In this document: positions 1-12,986 of the stretch, in pieces
Position numbering within the stretch: the stretch's first letter is position 1
Layout of the letters: every line of letters starts with the position of its first letter
NCBI GenBank assembly: GCA_017882935.1
Contig: JADGOP010000014.1
Span: 1 to 14,744, forward strand
Direction: 5' to 3'
Length of the DNA stretch: 14,744 nucleotides
Source: Actinomycetota bacterium
GTDB lineage: Bacteria; Actinomycetota; Acidimicrobiia; Acidimicrobiales; Iamiaceae
The notes under the pieces: model-generated
Told to the model about the DNA's origin: nothing
Databases searched by the model: none
The model's input: the letters and a program-made list of their open reading frames with translations, nothing else
Translations under genes and position numbers: made by a program

Positions 1-1324
<1,324 letters not shown>

Positions 1325-1392
1325 GGCGCACCCCCGGGTCGGTTCGCAGCGCTTCGGCTCTGGCGCCGGTCACCGTAGTTCGTCGCGAATAG

Positions 1393-1402
1393 GGGCATGC
1401 CC
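1393..1402. promoter_or_regulatory. 10-bp perfect palindrome between divergent genes
   Basis: GGGCATGCCC is a perfect palindrome within the 147-bp space between the divergently oriented acyl-CoA synthetase and LLM oxidoreductase. A small regulator could bind it, but ten GC-rich bases can be palindromic by chance here. A possible -10 element for the plus-strand gene (TAGAAC, 1429-1434) and a TANNNT-like element for the minus-strand gene (TACGGT, read on minus from 1377 to 1372) flank it; neither has a convincing -35. Confidence 0.25.
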
Positions 1403-1461
1403 ACGGTGCCGGCGCGGTCCGCACCGGGTAGAACAAGCACCGCACATCAGGTCGCAGCCAC

Positions 1462-1466
1462 AGGAG
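1462..1466 (+). promoter_or_regulatory. Ribosome binding site fixing the LLM start
   Basis: AGGAG lies 5 nt before the ATG at 1472. It decides between that ATG and the in-frame ATG at 1397, which has no such site and would add 25 residues outside the usual LLM N terminus. Confidence 0.75.
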
Positions 1467-1471
1467 CAGGC

Positions 1472-2374
1472 ATGAGAATCGGAATCTTCGCGGGAGGCCT
1501 CACCGGCCGGAGCTCGTCGGTCACCCGCGCCATCGAGGTGGCCCAGCAGGCGGCCGACGACGGCTTCGCGTCGCTGTGGGTGCCGCAGATCTTCTCGGTC
1601 GACGCGCTCACCACGCTGGCGGTCGTCGGCCACGCGGTCCCGGGCATCCAGCTCGGCACGGCGGTCGTCCCCACCTACCCGCGCCACCCCATCGCGCTGG
1701 CGCAGCAGGCCCTCACCGTCCAGTCGGCCTCCGGGGGGCGCCTCACGCTCGGCATCGGCCTGTCGCACCAGATGGTGATCGAGAACATGTACGGGTACTC
1801 GTTCGAGAAGCCGTTGCGGCACATGCGTGAGTACCTCGAGGCGCTCATGCCGTTGCTGCGGGGCGAAGGCGCGTCGATCAGCGGCGAGGCCGTCACCGCG
1901 CACGCCGCCCTCGACTTCGCCGACGCGCCGGCCCCCGACGTGCTGGTCGCGGCGCTCGGTCCCAAGATGCTCGAGCTGGCCGCCACCGTCACGGCCGGCA
2001 CGATCACGTGGATGACCGGCCCGGTCACGCTCGCCGAGCACACCGTCCCCACGCTCACCAAGGCCGCGGGCAGCCGGCCCATGCGGGTGGTCACCGCTCT
2101 GCCGGTGTGCGTCACCGACGACGCCGCGGGCGCCAGGGAGCTGGCCGCCAAGGCGTTCGAGGTCTACGGCATCCTGCCGTCGTACCGGGCCATGCTCGAC
2201 CGCGAGGGCGCCGACGGCCCCGCCGACGTGGCGATCATCGGCGACGAGGCCGCGGTGCGCGACGGCGTCGACCGGCTCCGCCAGGCGGGCGTCACCGAGT
2301 TCGCCGCGGTCGAGTTCCACCCCGGTGACACCGAGTCACAGCGCACCCGGGAGCTGCTCAAGTCGCTCCTCTAG
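1472..2374 (+). CDS. LLM class F420-dependent oxidoreductase
   Basis: A 300-residue luciferase-like (TIM-barrel) oxidoreductase, expected to use coenzyme F420 or flavin for hydride transfer to an unknown substrate in the cytoplasm. It starts MRIGIFAGGL, the first beta strand typical of the family. Then come GFASLWVPQI (about 31-40), the strand LGTAVVPTYPRHP (about 61-73), and the helix and strand QQALTVQSASGGRLTLGIGLSH (about 78-99), which is the strongest family signature. The ATG at 1472 is preferred over the in-frame ATG at 1397 because AGGAG sits 5 nt before it and the protein then begins at the barrel. It may belong to the MSMEG_4879-type subgroup (TIGR03564), but this is from memory of the pattern and unchecked. 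The gene converges with the SDR gene; a strong hairpin follows its stop by 8 nt. Whether it uses F420 or FMN cannot be decided from the sequence. Confidence 0.9.
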   Translation: MRIGIFAGGLTGRSSSVTRAIEVAQQAADDGFASLWVPQIFSVDALTTLAVVGHAVPGIQLGTAVVPTYPRHPIALAQQALTVQSASGGRLTLGIGLSHQMVIENMYGYSFEKPLRHMREYLEALMPLLRGEGASISGEAVTAHAALDFADAPAPDVLVAALGPKMLELAATVTAGTITWMTGPVTLAEHTVPTLTKAAGSRPMRVVTALPVCVTDDAAGARELAAKAFEVYGILPSYRAMLDREGADGPADVAIIGDEAAVRDGVDRLRQAGVTEFAAVEFHPGDTESQRTRELLKSLL

Positions 2375-2382
2375 GGCGAGGC

Positions 2383-2421
2383 CTGGTCCGAAACCGACCG
2401 TGAGGGTCGGTTTCGGACCAG
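2383..2421. terminator. Perfect 17-bp hairpin, likely bidirectional terminator
   Basis: The left arm CTGGTCCGAAACCGACC (2383-2399) is exactly complementary to the right arm (2405-2421) around a 5-nt loop. It sits between the stop of the LLM gene (2374, plus) and the stop of the SDR gene (2429, minus), so one structure can end both converging transcripts. No T-tract follows on either strand, which is usual for terminator hairpins in high-GC actinobacteria. Confidence 0.85.
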
Positions 2422-2428
2422 AGCTCCG

Positions 2429-3223
2429 TCAGCGGGCGGTCCAACCCCCGTCGACCGCGAGCGTCTGACCCGTCACGTAGGTGCTGGCATCGGAGGCGAG
2501 GAACAGCAGCGCGCCGTCGAGCTCGTGCTCGTCGCCCGCGCGCCCCATGGGGCAGTTGCGGGTGAGGAACGCCATCGATCCCTCGTCGGCGAACATCTTC
2601 TCGTTGGTCATCTCGCTGCGGAACCAGCCGGGAGCGATGCCGTTCACACGCACCCCCTTGCGGCTCCACTGGCAGCCGAGCTCTCGGGTGAGGCTCACGA
2701 CCGCGCCCTTCGAGGCCACGTAGCTCGCCTGCTTGATGGGGGCCGACGCCACCAGCCCGAGCATCGACGCGATGTTCACGATGGAGCCGCGCCGTTCGGC
2801 CAGGAAGTGCCGGCCCGCCAGCTGCGAGAGCACGAACAGCGCGTTGAGGTTGACGTCGACGACGCGTTCGAAGTGCTCGATCGGCTCGTCCTCGGCCGGG
2901 TACGTGTCGCCGATGCCGGCGTTGTTGACGAGCACGTCGAAGCGCCGGTTCGTCTCGGCCGCGAACGCCGTGGCGGCCTCCACCAGGCGGGCGCACGCGG
3001 CGTCGTCGGCGACGTCGCACGGAACCGCGCGCATGTGCTCGTGCGCGGCGGCCAGGGCCTCGATGCGGTCGACGCGGCGCGCCGCCACCACCACCGCTGC
3101 GCCGGCCTCGTGCAGCACCTCGGCGAAGCGGACCCCGAGCCCGCTCGAGGCTCCGGTGACGATGGCGACCGAACCGTCGAGACGGAACAGCGACGAGGAG
3201 CCCGCGGAGATCTGGTCGGTCAT
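2429..3223 (-). CDS. SDR family NAD(P)-dependent oxidoreductase
   Basis: A 264-residue classical short-chain dehydrogenase/reductase, interconverting an alcohol and a ketone with NAD(P). The Rossmann cofactor motif TGASSGLG is at residues 23-30, NNAG at 100-103, the catalytic serine in NIASMLG (S153), and the YxxxK pair is Y168/K172. The PG motif (IAPGW, about 196-200) and the C-terminal end VTGQTLAVDGGW are typical of the FabG-like group. Length matches the family. The ATG at 3223 is chosen because the conserved part begins about 15 residues later; no good Shine-Dalgarno precedes it, so it may be leaderless. Only 87 bp separate it from the divergent LLM gene at 3311. Substrate unknown; with an acyl-CoA synthetase nearby a 3-hydroxyacyl or steroid-like alcohol is plausible (inference). 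Confidence 0.93.
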   Translation of the reverse strand: MTDQISAGSSSLFRLDGSVAIVTGASSGLGVRFAEVLHEAGAAVVVAARRVDRIEALAAAHEHMRAVPCDVADDAACARLVEAATAFAAETNRRFDVLVNNAGIGDTYPAEDEPIEHFERVVDVNLNALFVLSQLAGRHFLAERRGSIVNIASMLGLVASAPIKQASYVASKGAVVSLTRELGCQWSRKGVRVNGIAPGWFRSEMTNEKMFADEGSMAFLTRNCPMGRAGDEHELDGALLFLASDASTYVTGQTLAVDGGWTAR

Positions 3224-3273
3224 GGTCAAACCATGGCACGCCGACCCCGGGTGGCCGTTCCACGGGCGACCGG

Positions 3274-3279
3274 TAGCGT
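3274..3279 (+). promoter_or_regulatory. Possible -10 element of the second LLM gene
   Basis: TAGCGT, a TANNNT-type element, lies 31 nt before the GTG at 3311 in the 87-bp divergent space. No recognisable -35 is present at 16-18 bp, so this is a weak call. Confidence 0.25.
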
Positions 3280-3297
3280 CGAGCGGACCGACCCACC

Positions 3298-3303
3298 AAG
3301 GAG
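3298..3303 (+). promoter_or_regulatory. Ribosome binding site fixing a GTG start
   Basis: AAGGAG, 7 nt before the GTG at 3311, is the best Shine-Dalgarno in the window and sets the start of the second LLM oxidoreductase. The open frame continues far upstream (to 2525) only as an antisense shadow of the SDR gene. Confidence 0.8.
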
Positions 3304-3310
3304 TCGTCTC

Positions 3311-4210
3311 GTGAAGATCCGGATCGGCTTCGGGCCGCCGCTGCGCACCGCCCTCGACGACCCCGGCGAGCTGGGCGCGCTGGTCGACTCGCTCGAGGGG
3401 AACGGCTTCGACTCGCTCTGGCTCAGCGAGCGCCTCACGGGCCCGGGCCCCGACCCGCTCATCGCCATCGCCATCGCCGCGGGCCGCAGCCGGCGGCTCC
3501 GGTTCGGCACCGGGGTGCTGGTCCTGCCCGGGCGGAACCCGGTGGTCCTCGCCAAGGAGATCGCCAGCCTCGACCGGCTGTCGGGCGGGCGGTTCCACCC
3601 CGCGGTCGGCCTCGGGGCCGTCGAGCCGCGCGAGCAGGCGGCGTTCGGCGTGGCCCGCAACGAGCGCGCCGCGTGGGTCGACGAGGCGCTGCCCCTCATG
3701 CGGCAGCTGTGGTCGGGCGAGCCCGTGCACCACGACGGGCCGCGCTTCCCCCTCGACGGGGTGCGGCTCAAGGTCACGCCCCATCAGGACCCGCTGGAGG
3801 TGTGGCTGGGCGGCCGGGTGCCCGTCGAGCTGCGGCGCATCGGTCGGCTGGGCGACGGCTGGCTGCCCTCGTTCATGACGCCCGACGAGGTGGCCGAGGG
3901 CTGGGCCGTCATCAACGACGTCGCCGCCGAGCACGGTCGCTCGGTACCGGCCGACCACCTGGGCATGCTCGTGCCGTACGCCGACGGTCCCCTGTCCGAC
4001 GACGTCGCCGCGCTGCTCGCCGCACGGCGCCCCGAGGTCGACGCCCGCGACCTGGTGGCCGGGGGCCTCGACGACCTGCGGGCCAAGCTCGAGGCCTACA
4101 TCGTCATCGGCGCGTCGAAGTTCGTGGTGCTGCCCCTGGCGGCGCCCGCCGACTGGGACGCGGAGCTCAGCCGGCTGGCCGAGGCGGTGCTCCCGCTGCA
4201 GCAGTCGTGA
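3311..4210 (+). CDS. LLM class F420-dependent oxidoreductase (second copy, different subgroup)
   Basis: A 299-residue luciferase-like oxidoreductase. The first strand is MKIRIGFGPP. GFDSLWLSERL (about 32-42) and FGTGVLVLPGRNPVVLAKE (about 65-83) follow, then the signature LDRLSGGRFHPAVGLG (about 87-102). Further on are LPLMRQLWSGEPV and a PLEVWLGG strand, where the family usually contacts the cofactor phosphate or substrate. It is clearly paralogous in fold to the LLM gene at 1472 but not close in sequence, so the two probably have different substrates. The start is a GTG with AAGGAG 7 nt upstream. The 3' end overlaps the converging TetR gene by 44 nt (4167-4210). Cofactor choice (F420 versus FMN) is inferred from family only. 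Confidence 0.92.
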   Translation: MKIRIGFGPPLRTALDDPGELGALVDSLEGNGFDSLWLSERLTGPGPDPLIAIAIAAGRSRRLRFGTGVLVLPGRNPVVLAKEIASLDRLSGGRFHPAVGLGAVEPREQAAFGVARNERAAWVDEALPLMRQLWSGEPVHHDGPRFPLDGVRLKVTPHQDPLEVWLGGRVPVELRRIGRLGDGWLPSFMTPDEVAEGWAVINDVAAEHGRSVPADHLGMLVPYADGPLSDDVAALLAARRPEVDARDLVAGGLDDLRAKLEAYIVIGASKFVVLPLAAPADWDAELSRLAEAVLPLQQS

Positions 4211-4859
4211 CCTGATCCCCGGCACCGGCCCCCGCGCCGGCCCAGGCCACGATCATGCCGCGCAGCCCCTCGGTGGCCAGGGCCACGAAGTCGTCGTCGT
4301 GGGCCGCGTCGCCGTGCTCGAGCCAACCCAGGACCGACTCCACCGCGGCCGTCACCATGAAGTCGACCGACCAACGGTGCAGCGGCTCGGCGCCCGGGGC
4401 GTTCGGACCGGCCAGCTCCTCGGCGAACGCCACGGCACCGCGCCGGATCTCGGCCGCGTAGGCGGCGAACGCCGGCTCGCGGCGGGCATGCACCCACAGC
4501 AGCCGGAAGCCGTCGGGGTTGCGGCGGGCCACGGCGAGCATGGCCCCCACCACCCGGCCGCCCGTGCCGGTGTCGGCCGGGAGCAGGCCCGACTGCTGGT
4601 CGAGGGCCTCCACCAGGTGCCCCGACACCTGCTCCAGCACCGCCCGGTACAGCTCCTCCTTGGAGTCGAAGTGCCGGTACACGATGAGGCGCGTCACCCC
4701 GGCCTCGGCGGCGACGTCGTCCATCGACGTGGCCTGGAAGCCGCCGCGGGCGAAGGCGGAGGCCGCGGCCTGCAGCAGCGAGGTGCGCCGCTCGGCCCGC
4801 CGCATGAGCTGGCGCCCGCCTGTGACCGATGTGGCAGGGGGACGGGGTGAGCGGGCCAT
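4167..4859 (-). CDS. TetR/AcrR family transcriptional regulator
   Basis: A 230-residue one-component repressor. Residues about 20-78 form the DNA-binding domain: RRTSLLQAAASAFARGGF, the helix-turn-helix TSMDDVAAEAGVTRLIVYRHF (about 44-64) and KEELYRAVLEQV. The C-terminal part is a variable ligand-binding region, with a helix containing FMVTAAVESVLGWLEHGD and an Ala/Gly/Thr-rich tail. The ATG at 4859 abuts the divergent operator region. On the minus strand a TTGCCA/TATACA promoter with 17-nt spacing would start transcription almost at this ATG, so the mRNA is probably leaderless. It most likely represses itself and the divergent gene at 4951. The ligand is unknown. Its stop lies 44 nt inside the second LLM gene, tail to tail. 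An internal start at the Met of MRRAERR would also leave the DNA-binding domain intact. Confidence 0.93.
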   Translation of the reverse strand: MARSPRPPATSVTGGRQLMRRAERRTSLLQAAASAFARGGFQATSMDDVAAEAGVTRLIVYRHFDSKEELYRAVLEQVSGHLVEALDQQSGLLPADTGTGGRVVGAMLAVARRNPDGFRLLWVHARREPAFAAYAAEIRRGAVAFAEELAGPNAPGAEPLHRWSVDFMVTAAVESVLGWLEHGDAAHDDDFVALATEGLRGMIVAWAGAGAGAGDQVTTAAAGAPPRPAG

Positions 4860-4896
4860 TGCCAATCTGTATACAGATGTGTTTACACTTTGGCAA
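4859..4896. promoter_or_regulatory. Nested palindromic operator with overlapping divergent promoters
   Basis: The 38 bp begin TTGCCAA (4859-4865) and end TTGGCAA (4890-4896), an inverted pair. Inside is a perfect 14-bp palindrome, ATCTGTATACAGAT (4865-4878), followed by a near-palindrome GTGTTTACAC (4879-4888), so two TGTnTACA half-operator-like units lie side by side. On the minus strand TTGCCA (4896-4891), 17 nt, then TATACA (4873-4868) makes a promoter for the TetR gene. On the plus strand TTGCCA (4859-4864), 17 nt, then TTTACA (4882-4887) makes one for the gene at 4951. A dimeric TetR bound here would block both. The region is AT-rich compared with its surroundings. The symmetry is seen directly; the binding protein is inferred from position. 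Confidence 0.75.
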
Positions 4897-4950
4897 GGAC
4901 CACGGCCGCCGCCGAAGGGGCCTGCAGCCGCAACCACGGGGGTACACCGC

Positions 4951-6075
4951 ATGAGCGCCACGCACACCGGCACCGCACAGCTCGACTACACCGAGGCCGA
5001 GCTGCTCGCCACGCACGACATCGCCGAGCCGCTCATCGCGGGCGGGGTGCGCTGCCACGGGGGCTTCGACGAGACGGGTGCCTACGTGTCGCCGCGCACC
5101 AAGAACCGGTGGCCCGCCATCGAGGCCTGGCAGGCCGAGCACACCGCCACCTTCGGCACCGACCTGCTCGACGTCCCCCTCGAGACCTGGCCCGAGCACT
5201 ACCCGAACGTCCCCCAGACCCGGCTGCTGCTCCAGCGCGGTGTGCCCGAGCCGGCCATCTCCACCCTCACCCGCATCGGCACCGTCGAGGGGTTCGGTGC
5301 CCTCATCCGCCACAGCGTGATCCCCGACTTCGGGACGATCTTCGACGAGGACACGCGGGGCACCGCCCTGACCCACCTCGGCGGCGGGCTCTACGAGGCC
5401 CACGCCCGCGACGAGGCCGGCTACGAGGACGAGGGCGGGCACAAGCAGATGTGGTTCGCCGCCCGCGACGTGGCCTTCGAGAGCCCCGTCACCGAGGACG
5501 AGACCGCCGTCATGCTCGAGCGCATGGGCATCGCTGCGGCCGGCTCCGGCGGCAAGATCGACCCCGCTCGGCTCCGGGCCCAGGCGCTCGCCAACCGGGT
5601 GCTGCCCGACGACATCGACTTCGACCTCGAGGCGCTGCTCACCCGCATGATCGGGCTGCTGTTCATCGAGATCTCCGCGTTCCACGCCTTCTCGTGGGCC
5701 GAGACCGTGCTCGCCGACCCCGACCTCGTGGCCGGCGAGGGCGAGGCCGGCCGCCTCGTCTCCTACATCCGGGCCGACGAGTCGCCCCACGTCGCCTACC
5801 TCAAGACGGTGCTCACCGAGGTGCGCGACCGCACCGTCGTCGGCGCGTCGGGCCGGCGCTACGCGGGCCGCGACATCGTCGGGCCGATCTGGGACCGGGG
5901 CCTCGAGAACTCCCTCGGCGTGCGCCGCAACGAGCAGCTCGACACCATGCGCCGTGAGGTCGAGCACGCCGTGCGCGGCCGCGCCGACCAGGCCGACCTG
6001 CTGGCCGAGTTCGACGCCCTGGGCTCGGTGCGACGTGCCGCCACCGGCGACTGGGTGGTCCGCGCCGCGAGCTGA
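4951..6075 (+). CDS. Unrecognised 374-aa protein, candidate ferritin-like di-iron protein
   Basis: I do not recognise a named family. The protein is soluble, without signal peptide or membrane helix. Its spacing of possible metal ligands resembles a four-helix di-iron bundle: E113 (TVEGFGALIRH), E161xxH164 (DEGGHKQMWFAARD), E240 (LLFIEISAFHAFSWAE) and E277xxH280 (ADESPHVAYLKTVL). This is the Glu, ExxH, Glu, ExxH order of ferritin-like oxygenases and desaturases. The sequence pattern is direct; the fold and any oxidase role are inferred. The N-terminal 110 residues carry no motif I can name. The ATG at 4951 is chosen because GGGGG lies 8 nt upstream and the frame further upstream is antisense to the TetR gene. 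It is divergent from that TetR gene across a palindromic operator, so it is likely the main regulated target. It ends 3 nt before the converging MFS gene, with no terminator between. Confidence 0.8.
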   Translation: MSATHTGTAQLDYTEAELLATHDIAEPLIAGGVRCHGGFDETGAYVSPRTKNRWPAIEAWQAEHTATFGTDLLDVPLETWPEHYPNVPQTRLLLQRGVPEPAISTLTRIGTVEGFGALIRHSVIPDFGTIFDEDTRGTALTHLGGGLYEAHARDEAGYEDEGGHKQMWFAARDVAFESPVTEDETAVMLERMGIAAAGSGGKIDPARLRAQALANRVLPDDIDFDLEALLTRMIGLLFIEISAFHAFSWAETVLADPDLVAGEGEAGRLVSYIRADESPHVAYLKTVLTEVRDRTVVGASGRRYAGRDIVGPIWDRGLENSLGVRRNEQLDTMRREVEHAVRGRADQADLLAEFDALGSVRRAATGDWVVRAAS

Positions 6076-7521: not shown

Positions 7522-8943
7522 CTAGGAGTTGCGGTGGATGATGGCGGACGGGGGTGGGATCGGGCCTCCCACCTCACCCGGGGTGCAGGTCGACACGTGC
7601 GGAGCCGCGAGCGTGGGCGGGTGCCGGAAGGCGGCAGCCTTGAAGTCGAGGCAGTCGAGCAGGTTGTCGGCGTTGGCGTCGCGGTAGGTCAGCGCGGGCA
7701 GGTTCCACTTCGTCTCGATGAGCTTCAGCACCGACGTGTGGTCGTGGACCACGTGCGACACGTAGTTCTTGCGGGCGAACGGCGACACCACCACGGCCGG
7801 CACGCGGAAGCCGTACCGGTCGTAGAGGTCGGCGGCGTCGGGGGTGCCCGGGGGACGGGCCACGACCGGGTCGACGTTGTCGGGACGCACCGCGCGGGGC
7901 GGCGGGACGTGGTCGTAGTAGCCGCCGTGCTCGTCGTACATCCACAGCAGCACCGTGCTGCCCCACTGCGGCCCGTGCATCACCGCGTTGACGACCCGGG
8001 CGCCGAACTGCTCGCCCAGGCTGATGTTCTGCGGGTCCTCCTCGGAGGCGTTCTCGAAGTCGGGGTCGACGAAGGTGACGGCGGGGAGCGTGCCCGCGGC
8101 GCAGTCGGTGAAGAACTTGTCGATCGGCTTGAGGTTGCCGGCGCGACCCGTGATGCCGTTCACCCACACGGCCGTGCCGGGAAGGGTGGTGTAGTAGTTG
8201 GCCCACGAGATGCCGTGGGCGTCGAGCTGGTCGAGGATGATGCCGTTCGGCGGGAGCGGGTCGGTGAGCGAGCTGACCGAGGTGCTCACGAGGCCGTTGG
8301 CCGTGCCGCCGAGCAGGAAGCGGCGGTTCGGGTAGGTCTGGCAGAGGGTGGAGCAGAACCAGCGGTCGCACACCGGGAAGCTGCGGGCCATCGAGTGGTA
8401 GAAGGGCAGGTCGGCGGCCGTCCAGTAGCCCATGGCCACGGGCCCGGAGCCGTCGACGAAGCCGTTGTTGCGGCCGTAGTTCCAGGCGGTGTGGCTGGCG
8501 TGCCAGTTCTGGCCGGGGGCGCCGTGGAGCTGGCACTCGCTCGGCATGTGGAACGCCCGGAGGGCCTCCTTGGGGTGGCCCGACCAGGGGTTCGAGTCGA
8601 CCGGCTTGCCGTGGCGGAAGGCGAAGCCGTCGCCCCGGCCCAGGGTGCCGAAGTAGTTGTCGTAGGAGTGGTTCTCCATCATCAGCACGATGATGTTCTG
8701 GATCTGCGGCAGCGACTCCGCCCCGGCCGGCAGCTTGGGGAACGGGCGCGACCCGGGGAAGCGGAGCGCGGCGCTGCCCAGGACCGACTGACGCGTTGCG
8801 GTGCGGGCCGCCGCGCCCTTGGTGCCGGCCACCGCGAGGCCGGTGACGAGCGCCCCGCCCAGGAAGGAGCGCCGCGACCACCGCTCCCCCGGTGGCGGGG
8901 TGTTGTCGTCGGGGGGTGGGACGGGAGGCAAGGCTTCGGTCAC
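7522..8943 (-). CDS. Tat-exported phosphoesterase (phospholipase C / acid phosphatase family)
   Basis: A 473-residue secreted hydrolase of the PF04185 phosphoesterase group, which cleaves phosphate esters or phospholipid head groups outside the membrane. A twin-arginine signal, RWSRRSFLGGALVTGLAVAG (R24/R25), shows export of the folded protein through Tat. Metal and catalytic motifs are MENHSYDNYFG (E90/N91), CQTYPNRRF (T203, candidate nucleophile), MYDEHGGYYDHVPPP (D337/E338) and HDHTSVLKLIE (H400-H402). All the family's key positions appear present, so it should be active. It is shorter than phosphocholine-specific phospholipases (about 700 aa) and lacks their C-terminal repeats, so acid phosphatase or general phosphodiesterase activity is as likely as phospholipase C. 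The GTG at 8943 is the chosen start; no clear Shine-Dalgarno is visible. Phosphate release next to an MFS gene suggests nutrient scavenging (inference). Confidence 0.92.
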   Translation of the reverse strand: MTEALPPVPPPDDNTPPPGERWSRRSFLGGALVTGLAVAGTKGAAARTATRQSVLGSAALRFPGSRPFPKLPAGAESLPQIQNIIVLMMENHSYDNYFGTLGRGDGFAFRHGKPVDSNPWSGHPKEALRAFHMPSECQLHGAPGQNWHASHTAWNYGRNNGFVDGSGPVAMGYWTAADLPFYHSMARSFPVCDRWFCSTLCQTYPNRRFLLGGTANGLVSTSVSSLTDPLPPNGIILDQLDAHGISWANYYTTLPGTAVWVNGITGRAGNLKPIDKFFTDCAAGTLPAVTFVDPDFENASEEDPQNISLGEQFGARVVNAVMHGPQWGSTVLLWMYDEHGGYYDHVPPPRAVRPDNVDPVVARPPGTPDAADLYDRYGFRVPAVVVSPFARKNYVSHVVHDHTSVLKLIETKWNLPALTYRDANADNLLDCLDFKAAAFRHPPTLAAPHVSTCTPGEVGGPIPPPSAIIHRNS

Positions 8944-9012: not shown

Positions 9013-10467
9013 TCAGATGTTCGGGCCGCCGCCGGGGTTGGTGCCCGGAGGCCCACCGGGACCGGGTGTGGTGGTGCTCGGCGAGCCGCCACCACCGCCA
9101 CCGGCGTGGCACACCGTGGCCTCCACGAGCGACTGCCCGGGGCGCGTGGGGTCGGCGATGATCACGAAGGTGGCCTTCACCCGGTTGGCCCACTGCGTGA
9201 CCGCCTGAGCCATCACCGTCGTCGCCTCGCGGTCGACCGAGGCGAGGCGGATGCGGGCGCACGACCGGCCCTGCGAGGTCCACGCCACGGTGGCGTCGCC
9301 TCGGTAGCCGTCCATCGCCTGCGAGAGCAGGTCGCTGTCGACCTTGTCGGTGAACGCGTCCTGGATCAGCAACTGGCCGAAGGCGCCCGACGCCGTGGGC
9401 GTGGCTCCCGGGGCCGGGGGCGGCACCACCAGGGGCTTCTCGCCCCCCACGTAGCGCGTGGGGTCGAGCGCCTGCTGGCTGCCGCCGGGCGGGGTGCGGA
9501 AGGCGGCGTCGAGGCCCGCCCGACCACCCTGGTCGAGGACGGCCTGCACCAGGTCGGGGCCCGCGTTGTCGGGGCTCGACAGCCAGCGCGCCAGCGACAC
9601 CGGCACCTGGCGGGGATCGGACACGTTGGGCGTGCGGTCGGCCGCCTCGGCCTGCGCGGCCTGCTGCTCGTCGTAGGGCTGGGTGCTGAGCCAGGTGTTC
9701 CCGATGCGCTGCTGGTCGCCCGACACCAGGCTCGCCAGGCCGAACTGCGCCTCACCCAGGCCCTTCGAGGGGTCGAGCCTGCCGATGGAGAACCACTGGT
9801 CGTCGAGGGCCCGCGTGAGCATGCCCACGATGGTCTGCTTCACGTACGACGTGTAGGGCGCCGTGCGCACGTGCAGCACCTTCGTGCCCGGGTCGTAGAA
9901 CGCCACGGTGCCGTCGCCCAGCCACGTCTGCTGGGCCTGGACCAGGTCGGTGTTGCTGGGGTTCAGGCCGAACGCGGTCATGACCACGTTCAGGTGCGTG
10001 AGCAGCGGCTTGTCGGAGCGCAGGTAGGTGTGCCACGCCGACAGGTAGGTCGGCACGGTGTCGAGCACCACCGCTGGCGTGGACTTGAACTTGAGGTCCC
10101 GGTGCTGCTCGACGAAGGCGATGAACCCCGGGAGCGCCCGGGCGAGCTGCGTCCGCGTGAGCACCTGCCCGTCGGGCGTGGTGGTGGTCGGCCCCGGAGC
10201 CGTGGTGGGTGCCGTGGCCGGCGTGACGGTGGTGGGGGGTGCGGTCACGACCCGCTTCTTCGGGGGGCGCAGCAGCAGGAGGAGCCCGAAGGTGGCCAGG
10301 GCCGCCAGCAGCGCCACGCCCACCACGACCGCAGCGAGCGGCATGCCACCCGAGCGGGCTGGTTCGACGACCGGCGCCTCGGGTGGTGGCGGCTCGCTGC
10401 CCGGAGGCCAGTCGAGCGGCGGGCTCGGCGGGTAGGGCGGTGGGTTCGGCAGCCAGCGCTCGGGCAC
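9013..10467 (-). CDS. Membrane-anchored metalloprotease-like protein with lost HExxH (pseudoprotease)
   Basis: 484 residues. A Pro-rich cytoplasmic N terminus (1-40) precedes one transmembrane helix (about 42-67, stop-transfer RPPKKR), a Thr/Pro-rich stalk (about 73-100), the ectodomain (about 100-455) and a Gly/Pro-rich tail. The ectodomain follows an actinobacterial zinc-peptidase layout I know as RGLxF...GFYDPxTxxLxVRG...HELTHALQDQHF...LVEGDA...PxxYxxGE. Here the matching stretches are FVEQHRDLKFKS, VAFYDPGTKVLHVR (about 188-201), GMLTRALDDQWF (215-226), ASLVSGDQQ and DPTRYVGGEKP. The HExxH positions read G215, M216 and R219, and the EGD glutamate is S249, so zinc chemistry is not expected. 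It may bind peptide or act as a scaffold or sensor. Start is a GTG at 10467 with a distant GGAGAG. It is divergent from the sigma-like fusion gene. The assignment rests on remembered family pattern, not a search. Confidence 0.75.
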   Translation of the reverse strand: MPERWLPNPPPYPPSPPLDWPPGSEPPPPEAPVVEPARSGGMPLAAVVVGVALLAALATFGLLLLLRPPKKRVVTAPPTTVTPATAPTTAPGPTTTTPDGQVLTRTQLARALPGFIAFVEQHRDLKFKSTPAVVLDTVPTYLSAWHTYLRSDKPLLTHLNVVMTAFGLNPSNTDLVQAQQTWLGDGTVAFYDPGTKVLHVRTAPYTSYVKQTIVGMLTRALDDQWFSIGRLDPSKGLGEAQFGLASLVSGDQQRIGNTWLSTQPYDEQQAAQAEAADRTPNVSDPRQVPVSLARWLSSPDNAGPDLVQAVLDQGGRAGLDAAFRTPPGGSQQALDPTRYVGGEKPLVVPPPAPGATPTASGAFGQLLIQDAFTDKVDSDLLSQAMDGYRGDATVAWTSQGRSCARIRLASVDREATTVMAQAVTQWANRVKATFVIIADPTRPGQSLVEATVCHAGGGGGGSPSTTTPGPGGPPGTNPGGGPNI

Positions 10468-10616: not shown

Positions 10617-12986
10617 GTGCCTGACCGGGACCCCGCCCCACCCGACGATCCGGGCTCCCCCGCGCCCACGCGCACCGGCCGGCGAGAGCTGCCCGGCCAG
10701 GCCCACGCGGTCGACGACGCCACCGACCTCGAACCGGGGCTGCGGCCCGAGCCGGCCACCCCGCCGTCAACGGTGGGCGGCGACGAGGCCATCGCCAGCC
10801 GCGCCACCCGCGAGGAGGCCCGCGACCTGCTCGCCCTGCGGCGCGCGAAGGCGGGCGACGACGCCTCGTTCGCGGCGCTGCTGCGCGCCAACGACGCCAC
10901 CCTGCGGGCCTTCACGGTCGCCCTCAGCGGCGCCGAGGCCATGGACCGGGTCGTGCGCGACGCCTACGTGAAGGCGTACCGGGCGCTCGACCTGGCTCCC
11001 GACCGCGACCCGCGCCTGTGGCTGCTGCGAGTCGCCGGCACGGCCTGCTTCGACGAGGAGCGGCGCCAGACCCGGCCCTCGCGGCGACGCGCCCGCAGCG
11101 CGACCCACGACGACGGGGAGGCCACCCCCGATCCGGCGCCGGTGCCGATCGAGCTGCCCGACGAGCAGCGCGTGGCCCTGGCGCTGGTCGACGCGGCGGG
11201 CCTCACCATCCGGGAGGCGGCACGCGTCACCGACCGCATCCCCGACCGCCTCCGCGACGACCTCCGTGCGGCCCGCGACGCCACGCCGGGGGTGGCGCTG
11301 CACCGACCCGAGGCCGCACCCGAGCACGCTGCCGACTTCTGGAACGACGTGGCGCGGCGGCTCCTGGTCGCCCGGCAGACCCCCTCCACGCGGCTCGACC
11401 CGGTCGACGAGGGCAGCGCGGCCATCGGCTACGCGCTGCCCACGCTCAGCACCCCGGCGCCGGGCCAGCCGCGCTCCGGGCCGTCGCAGGCGCCGCCACG
11501 CCAGCAGCCGCGCCGCCGCTCGCCGGGAACCGGGCCGGTCGGCAACCGCTCGAGCGAGGCCGCCCGCGCCGCGCAGTCCGCGCACGCGCCCGGAGCCGCC
11601 CCGCCGCGGCCCCGGCCCGTGACCGTGGCGCCGAACCCGCGTGCGGAGCAGGCCGCGAAGGGCATGGCCACCCGCGTGCGGCAGACCCGCACGCGGGACG
11701 TGCCGTGGGGCCGGATCGCGGCGATCGGCGCGGCCGTCGTGGTGATGCTCATCATGGTGCTGGTGGTCGTCACGGTGGCCAGCCGGGCCACCAACCGCGA
11801 CGCCCGGCTGGGCCTCACCACCGACAAGGTGCTGAACCGCCTCGACGACGAGCTCAGCGCCGACCGCACGATCACCGGCACGCTCCGGGTCTCCGCGACC
11901 GGGCGCGCCGCCGAGCCCACCACCGGTCGCTACGTCTTCATCCACGTGTCCGACGGGTCCTACCGGCTCACCGCGGCCGACGGCCACTGGGACGAGGCCT
12001 ACGACGCCTCGGCGGGCACCTTCGCGGTGCGCGGCACCGGTCCGGGCGGCGCTGCGCCTGCGACGAAGGTCTCGCTCACCGGCCTGGCTCCCGGTCCGCC
12101 CGACCCGTCGGCCTTCGACGCGCGGGCCACCGGCGACCCGCTCGCCGCCACCCTGCGCCTGTTGCACGAGGGCACCGGGCGCCAGGTGACCACCTCGGAG
12201 CTGCTGCCCGCCGGCACCACCGACACCAGCCGGGCGACGGCCGTGTGGGTCATCACCGCCCACCTCCCGCGCTCGTCGGCGGCCGCGCTCCACCCCCTGC
12301 TCGCAGGGGTGGGCTCCCTGGCCACCGAACCCGCGGGCGACGAGGTCCGCGTGGTGGTCGACCAGTCGCTGCTGCTGCCCCTGCGGCTCCAGGTGCTGCA
12401 CGGGGGTGCGTCGGTCATCGACGTCCACCTCGGGTCGCTCGCCACCAACAACCCGCTGCCGGCAGGCAGCCTCCGCGTCGGCGGCGCCGCGCTCACGGCC
12501 ACGCGCGACCTCGGGTTCCGCGCCACGGTGCTCAGCGGAGCGCAGGCCGTCGTGGGCTACCAGCCGCTCACGCCTGCCTTCGTCCCCGACGGCTACGTGC
12601 TGACCGACGTCGCGGTCCGGGCCACGGCGCCGGCCGGCGTCCGCAGCACCGCAGGCGGCACCAACCCGCCCGACGTCGACGTGGTGTCCCTCACCTACCG
12701 GCGCGGCTCGCTCTCGCTCACCGTCACCACCCGTCGCACGGGCGCCTCCACCAAGGCGTGGCACGACCCCTTCGCGTCCCCGGGCCGCGCGGGCGGCACC
12801 GGCTCACCGGCGCGCACCGACCCCGACGCGACCCACCTCGGGTCGGGCGCGTTCGCCGGCACCACGGCGCGCGGCGGACCGTCGCCGCTCCCCCACCTCT
12901 GGGCGGTCGACGACCAGTACGTGCTGACCGTCGCGGGCGACCTGGGGGCCTCCGAGCTCCACACGGTCGCGGCGTCGATGCACTGA
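10617..12986 (+). CDS. ECF-sigma-like / transmembrane / RseB-LolA-like fusion protein
   Basis: 789 residues in one uninterrupted frame. Residues 1-60 are Pro/Asp-rich and disordered. About 78-152 resemble sigma region 2 (DDASFAALLRANDATLRAF, then DRVVRDAYVKAYRALDL and DPRLWLLRVAGTACFDEERR). About 179-222 resemble region 4 (LPDEQRVALALVDAAGLTIREAARVTDRI...). A Pro/Arg/Gln-rich linker (about 270-362) leads to one membrane helix (about 366-389). The extracytoplasmic part (395-789) has a LolA/RseB-like beginning (TITGTLRVSATGR...GRYVFIHVSDGSYRL), a PAFVPDGYVLTDV segment and a C-terminal VAGDLGASELHTVAASM, like RseB/DUF4367 proteins. The putative recognition helix is acidic (D210, D214, D215), so DNA binding may be weakened. 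It starts at GTG 10617, the first start codon after an in-frame TGA at 10602-10604; the Shine-Dalgarno is weak. It likely links envelope state to transcription, perhaps through proteolytic release. Alternatively it is a degenerate decoy or anti-sigma scaffold. Confidence 0.8.
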   Translation: MPDRDPAPPDDPGSPAPTRTGRRELPGQAHAVDDATDLEPGLRPEPATPPSTVGGDEAIASRATREEARDLLALRRAKAGDDASFAALLRANDATLRAFTVALSGAEAMDRVVRDAYVKAYRALDLAPDRDPRLWLLRVAGTACFDEERRQTRPSRRRARSATHDDGEATPDPAPVPIELPDEQRVALALVDAAGLTIREAARVTDRIPDRLRDDLRAARDATPGVALHRPEAAPEHAADFWNDVARRLLVARQTPSTRLDPVDEGSAAIGYALPTLSTPAPGQPRSGPSQAPPRQQPRRRSPGTGPVGNRSSEAARAAQSAHAPGAAPPRPRPVTVAPNPRAEQAAKGMATRVRQTRTRDVPWGRIAAIGAAVVVMLIMVLVVVTVASRATNRDARLGLTTDKVLNRLDDELSADRTITGTLRVSATGRAAEPTTGRYVFIHVSDGSYRLTAADGHWDEAYDASAGTFAVRGTGPGGAAPATKVSLTGLAPGPPDPSAFDARATGDPLAATLRLLHEGTGRQVTTSELLPAGTTDTSRATAVWVITAHLPRSSAAALHPLLAGVGSLATEPAGDEVRVVVDQSLLLPLRLQVLHGGASVIDVHLGSLATNNPLPAGSLRVGGAALTATRDLGFRATVLSGAQAVVGYQPLTPAFVPDGYVLTDVAVRATAPAGVRSTAGGTNPPDVDVVSLTYRRGSLSLTVTTRRTGASTKAWHDPFASPGRAGGTGSPARTDPDATHLGSGAFAGTTARGGPSPLPHLWAVDDQYVLTVAGDLGASELHTVAASMH

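Follow-up and report, generated by a model that had tools for sequence, protein, structure and literature searches.

The window is a stretch of 14,744 nucleotides that corresponds to contig C442 of a 2.76 Mb genome (478 contigs, 78.67% complete). It contains a gene that encodes an ECF-sigma-like module, an anti-sigma-derived helix, a membrane helix and an RseB-like extracytoplasmic region in one chain (Table 1). The frame at 10617-12986 of the forward strand begins with GTG and continues for 789 residues without an internal stop. Its product has a hydrophobic peak at residues 367-385 and a single cysteine at residue 144. Conservation of the frame among relatives rules out that it arose by chance in GC-rich DNA, and the long antisense frame at 10767-12764 is probably a by-product of codon bias.

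Table 1. Features of the fused gene and its divergent neighbour, in positions of the window
Feature	Residues	Positions	Strand	Basis
Whole fused gene	789 and stop	10617..12986	+	homologous single frames in relatives
Sigma-2-like domain	64-153	10806..11075	+	
Altered region 2.2 patch (canonical A.D..QE, here M.R..RD)	109-115	10941..10961	+	residue comparison
Sigma-4-like domain	180-223	11154..11285	+	AlphaFold2 helices 182-222; Pfam r4_2 in relatives
Anti-sigma-derived helix region (PEHAADFWNDVARRLLVARQTP...)	234-257	11316..11387	+	conservation; alignment to stand-alone anti-sigma-like N termini; model helix 241-254
Basic, Pro-rich linker, predicted disordered		11388..11696	+	pLDDT mostly <50
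Single membrane helix	about 364-390	11706..11786	+	model and hydrophobicity
LolA/RseB-N-like extracytoplasmic domain	400-632	11814..12512	+	predicted model, fold search
RseB-C/DUF4367-like extracytoplasmic domain	633-789	12513..12983	+	predicted model, fold search, domain profiles
Divergent neighbour, single-pass membrane protein with metallopeptidase-like ectodomain		9013..10467	-	homologue near the fused gene in 9/18 loci

An earlier note on this DNA had described an ECF-sigma-like module, one membrane helix and an RseB/LolA-like sensor in a single 789-codon frame, and profiles in relatives, the predicted model and Foldseek confirm that description. Its picture of a sigma-like module that carries its own sensor holds for the single-chain layout but missed the anti-sigma remnant between sigma-4 and the membrane helix. 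A sigma fold at the N terminus, which the note had named beforehand as a test, is found: the AlphaFold2 model has the sigma-2 and sigma-4 folds of ECF sigma factors, the module matches the sigma-E fold, and relatives match the corresponding Pfam families. The profile check that it proposed succeeds in part. Relatives of the fused protein exceed the Pfam sigma cut-offs (Sigma70_r4_2 in 3 of 10), but the window protein itself stays below them (Sigma70_r2, E 0.0086; Sigma70_r4_2, E 0.02), as it does in its 24 matches to NCBIfam sigma models (best E 4.4e-8, all below the cut-offs of those models). For the extracytoplasmic region, the structure check agrees with the proposal, and Foldseek places RseB/MucB structures at ranks 1-15. 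Residues 400-789 form the RseB/MucB pair of a LolA-like and a C-terminal domain, an assignment by fold alone; a search of PDB sequences with the ectodomain profile returns no sequence relative, only two designed proteins at E of about 0.05. At E values up to 10, Pfam gives the window protein neither a carbohydrate-binding module nor an anti-sigma zinc finger, and it finds no receiver domain. The zinc-finger domain is ruled out by this result together with the single cysteine.

How widely does this architecture occur? Within the family, 12 of 13 genomes, the window's own among them, match a query made of the membrane and outside half; none of 8 genomes from other families of the order does. An 18-row profile detects some match in 19 of 24 genomes sampled from the family. 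Seventeen of these matches are full-length, one is split across two contigs (G006) and one is weak and partial (G075); the other five genomes have none. In 16 of the 17 full-length matches, one open frame also covers the sigma part; for this count, some genomes were tied to named contigs through their location and the length of the frame. The homologue survey suggested in the earlier note thereby finds a conserved fusion. In the seventeenth case (L090 in G071), the sigma part lies in another frame, through a frameshift or a sequencing error. A sample of 59 genomes from the order, with at most 27 candidates per genome scored, has matches in at least 14; most of the short weak ones were taken without inspection, and full-length proteins among the matches listed occur only in two genomes of the Acidimicrobiales family that carries the fusion. 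At phylum level (149 genomes, at most 10 candidates per genome scored), matches occur in at least 39, and none of the 29 non-window loci fetched from this sample has an ECF match in the frame of the ectodomain match. Among public contigs, L046, L047, L048, L050, L052, L053 and L054 carry the fused gene, under titles that read Acidimicrobiales, Acidimicrobiia or Actinomycetota. A later protein search adds 45 fused relatives, 44 of which align over sigma-2; two are labelled Aquihabitans, which NCBI places in Iamiaceae. With the window sequence alone as query, a contig scan gives 199 pattern matches and no relative, and a protein search gives the protein itself and P0003 among its matches; a plasmid search has no match. 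Within these samples, the fusion is a recurrent feature of a single Acidimicrobiales family, and the candidates scored from the order and the phylum gave no further full-length fused match.

Conservation differs among the segments. Across 11 sequences, mean pairwise identity is highest in the anti-sigma helix (0.51), followed by sigma-2 (0.41) and the LolA-like domain (0.29). The sigma module is no frozen remnant, since its sigma-2 part has changed less than the LolA-like domain. These values bear on the possibility that the gene is a decaying, functionless fusion or an assembly artefact. Such a reading could draw on the weak Pfam scores of the window protein, on the family genomes without a copy and on the neighbouring protease-like gene, in which the HExxH position (9811-9825) reads GMLTR. 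It is nevertheless very improbable, given the sigma-2 conservation and the single frame that persists in the 16 genomes and the 45 further database proteins. The HExxH motif is also lost in the neighbours of L043 and L040 and is retained in six relatives.

The origin of the fused chain is indicated by loci at which its halves are separate. A scan of species genomes with a 12-row alignment yields 17 loci. L045, L049 and L051 each have a canonical ECF sigma gene followed by one for a membrane anti-sigma-like protein that shares the ectodomain, and the two genes overlap by ATGA; the second gene of L049 is frame-broken farther downstream, by an error or a real frameshift. L104 (genome G188) has an ECF gene and an anti-sigma-like gene in the same order as L045. 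These split pairs are adjacent genes in other Actinomycetota records. Two more anti-sigma-like proteins, P0010 and P0011, also stand alone, and neither has a Pfam match over its cut-off. The N terminus of the stand-alone anti-sigma (...LPVPEHGPTFWADLDHRL... in L051) aligns just ahead of the linker in the fused proteins (...LPVPPASPTFWADLGRRLLAE... in L047). The motif FWxxLGRRLL forms the short helix of the inhibitor part and matches the stand-alone N termini.

In an unrooted tree built from 48 sigma modules, a branch with 99/97 support separates the 22 fused modules from the rest, and the sigmas of the split pairs adjoin this clade. All three components of a sigma/anti-sigma fusion, namely an ECF module, an anti-sigma part and a membrane helix, are present in one chain. 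Because outgroups carry the halves as adjacent overlapping genes, we regard the fused protein as a sigma/anti-sigma fusion, and we hold this architecture and its fusion origin with high confidence. The narrow range suggests, on a tree without a root, that the fusion is the derived state. In the split pairs, the gene overlap points to a second product that probably binds the adjacent ECF sigma, and the second half of the fused chain would likewise inhibit its sigma module. Other two-gene arrangements also occur. In L105 (G121), an ECF gene precedes a CxxC-type anti-sigma-like protein, of zinc type by eye, with an RseB-like ectodomain, which combines RseA- and RseB-like functions in one chain. 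In L072 (G055), the membrane protein after the ECF gene has, by eye, only the C-terminal RseB-like/DUF4367-like part and lacks the LolA-like domain.

The fused proteins differ from canonical ECFs in region 2.2. We take positions 111 and 114, mapped from the sigma-70 literature, to be docking residues of sigma-2 on RNA polymerase. The contacts of sigma-2 with the beta-prime coiled coil are extensive and electrostatic in the sigma-H holoenzyme, and the residues that make them are conserved among sigma-A and ECFs (PMC6411747); region 2.2 residues are implicated in core binding (PMC4383634). The canonical set comprises 26 ECFs, with 10 from the window's own genome and 16 from other loci. Among 16 Sigma70_r2 matches in the genome, L016 is the window and L001, L002, L004, L005 and L012 were excluded by eye as other sigma types; the primary-type sigma L002 also has glutamine at 114. 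The comparison leaves aside three ECF frames of L056, and the set of five other long ECF-type proteins was drawn up without P0014. The canonical subset from L045-L061 was retrieved by a region 2.2 pattern in which this glutamine plays no part. Position 114 is glutamine in 25 of 26 canonical ECFs (serine in one) and in 5/5 other long ECF-type proteins, compared with 0/24 fused proteins. Position 111 is aspartate or glutamate in 26/26, 5/5 and 4/24, respectively. Position 115 is acidic in all 26 canonical ECFs, in 9/24 fused proteins and in 0/5 other long proteins, and therefore only 111 and 114 separate the fused clade cleanly. In the window protein, both positions are arginine, and the near-invariant D..Q of ECF region 2.2 is absent.

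The later proteins extend this pattern. Among P0019-P0063, 44 proteins are scorable (P0062 has a gap at the region 2.2 columns); in these, position 111 is never acidic and is arginine in 38, position 115 is never acidic and is alanine in 41, and glutamine at 114 occurs in two, P0058 and P0059. These two and the canonical L110 are the exceptions to the glutamine rule. Positions 111 and 114 are thus altered across the clade, apart from two proteins. The proteins are related and the sets overlap in origin (P0022 and the L047 query share 95% identity), so that the counts do not represent independent events. Arginine at 111 is a conserved charge reversal and may mark a new binding surface. Y117, A120 and R122 are invariant in the fused proteins (24/24 and 44/44 scored). 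A scan of all columns for residues present in at least 80% of canonical and at most 35% of fused proteins identifies five canonical-only positions, namely 109, 111 and 114 in region 2.2 and 211 and 215 in sigma-4; the reverse scan identifies four fused-specific positions (86, 93, 97 and 110).

The sigma-4 domain could suggest a membrane-anchored DNA-binding regulator in the style of ToxR/CadC, which would use the sigma-4 helix-turn-helix without docking on RNA polymerase. Sigma-4 is indeed retained, and position 215 is arginine in 44 of the 45 later proteins, so that the sigma-4 changes are not clade-wide. However, position 215 is altered in 16 of the first 24 proteins, the window protein included, and threonine at 211 is found in only 7 of these 24 and 2 of the 45. 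Such a regulator is an improbable description of the family.

Does the fused protein still work as a sigma factor? The earlier note had left a choice between a latent sigma that awaits release and a fixed sequestering device, and the clade-wide changes in region 2.2 favour the second option, with a sigma-like module that would bind something else. In the first, a working ECF sigma would be tethered to the membrane until a signal at the sensor triggers site-1/site-2 proteolysis that frees the module, a route known from IutY and proposed for ECF52. The domain order agrees with this scheme, IutY (PMC5411451) and ECF48/52/53 (PMC8999054, PMC5826349) offer precedents, sigma-2 is well conserved, and the arginine at 215 prevails in the later proteins. 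The genome also has a short match, just at the cut-off, to Peptidase_M50, a site-2 protease family. Nonetheless, the latent sigma is rather unlikely: positions 111 and 114 are altered throughout the clade and are both retained in the five other long ECF-type proteins, and a crude ECF-like promoter pattern is absent from 14 of 16 upstream regions, with hits at L034, inside coding sequence, and at L043. A scan for sigma-70 promoters and terminators found none.

The altered putative docking residues lead us to favour, over a simple latent sigma, a membrane-tethered sigma-like module that is impaired for RNA polymerase and would act mainly through another, putative partner; we put the probability of this reading at about 0.55. 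Alterations at conserved residues suggest, and do not prove, a loss of RNA polymerase binding. We propose that an ancestral ECF sigma and its cognate membrane anti-sigma, encoded by two overlapping genes, became one single-pass membrane protein in one Acidimicrobiales family. Homology, gene order and predicted fold support a layout in which the sigma-2/sigma-4 module lies on the cytoplasmic side, next to the short anti-sigma helix that would formerly have inhibited it in trans, with the C-terminal half as an RseB-type sensor outside the membrane. An envelope or peptidoglycan signal at the RseB-like part may loosen the helix from the sigma-like module, either by regulated proteolysis or by a conformational change. 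The output would then be the binding of another partner, for example titration of an anti-sigma factor as by the PhyR sigma-like domain, rather than action as an ordinary sigma subunit.

The fused protein shares the RseB/MucB sensor fold and the sigma-E sigma fold with the sigma-E/RseA/RseB system of E. coli and with AlgU/MucA/MucB, but these systems consist of separate proteins; short of a direct comparison, no sequence match between the anti-sigma helix and RseA was seen. RseB/MucB is a separate periplasmic protein that binds RseA, whereas the window ectodomain shares its chain with a membrane helix. In CnrH/CnrY, CnrY is a separate protein whose ectodomain differs from that of the window protein. 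IutY (ECF243) of Pseudomonas putida, the most thoroughly studied fusion, likewise has an ECF sigma and an anti-sigma in one polypeptide, with the anti-sigma in the periplasm. IutY responds to the siderophore aerobactin, and cleavage by Prc and RseP leaves its sigma domain active (PMC5411451); the window protein instead has an RseB-like ectodomain and an altered region 2.2. Sigma/anti-sigma fusions are also predicted for ECF48, ECF52, ECF53 and some ECF36 (PMC8999054). ECF52, ECF48 and ECF53 resemble the window protein as actinobacterial ECFs with a C-terminal anti-sigma-like part, a membrane helix and an outside domain. ECF52 (SCO4117, Streptomyces) has a zinc finger and a carbohydrate-binding module (PMC5826349), in contrast to the RseB-like double domain outside and the absence of a detected zinc finger here. 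Among the sigma/anti-sigma fusions described in the available parts of the literature searched, a comparison that stands apart from the 2021 ECF re-classification, none with an RseB-type sensor was found. This sensor and the altered patch appear to distinguish the window protein from known sigma/anti-sigma fusions.

A sigma fold that is degenerate and non-initiating has a precedent in PhyR: its ECF-like domain has apparently degenerate promoter and core regions and titrates an anti-sigma factor (PMC8103513). The window protein differs from PhyR in that it lacks a receiver domain, is membrane-anchored and has an RseB-like C-terminal half. An RNA-polymerase-dead module would make the protein the membrane-bound equivalent of PhyR; if the module still works, it would revise which region 2.2 residues an ECF sigma needs. 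One chain packs sigma, anti-sigma and RseB-like sensor, and the passage from split pair to fusion would offer a natural series on a sigma fold freed from holding RNA polymerase.

The gene neighbourhood may point to the cell wall. A gene for an L,D-transpeptidase lipoprotein-like protein is the commonest divergent neighbour of the fused gene (L034, L035, L036, L037, L040, L041, L042, L047, L052 and L093); it was not found in the window, L033, L038, L039, L043, L050 or L054. A more specific proposal, which we advance tentatively and at somewhat less than even odds, is that these proteins form a transmembrane pseudo-sigma family that lost RNA polymerase docking after fusion with its own RseB-type anti-sigma and became a tethered partner-binding switch tied to L,D-transpeptidase crosslinking. 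The recurrent neighbour leaves such a cell-wall role open to direct test. Elsewhere in the window, positions 2-6075 encode an acyl-CoA ligase, luciferase-like oxidoreductases, an SDR and a fatty-acid desaturase, homologues of which recur near the fused gene in L033, L036, L038, L039 and other loci. The reverse strand at 7525-8943 encodes a phosphoesterase-family (phospholipase C-like) protein with, by eye, a twin-arginine-like N terminus (RRSFLGG).
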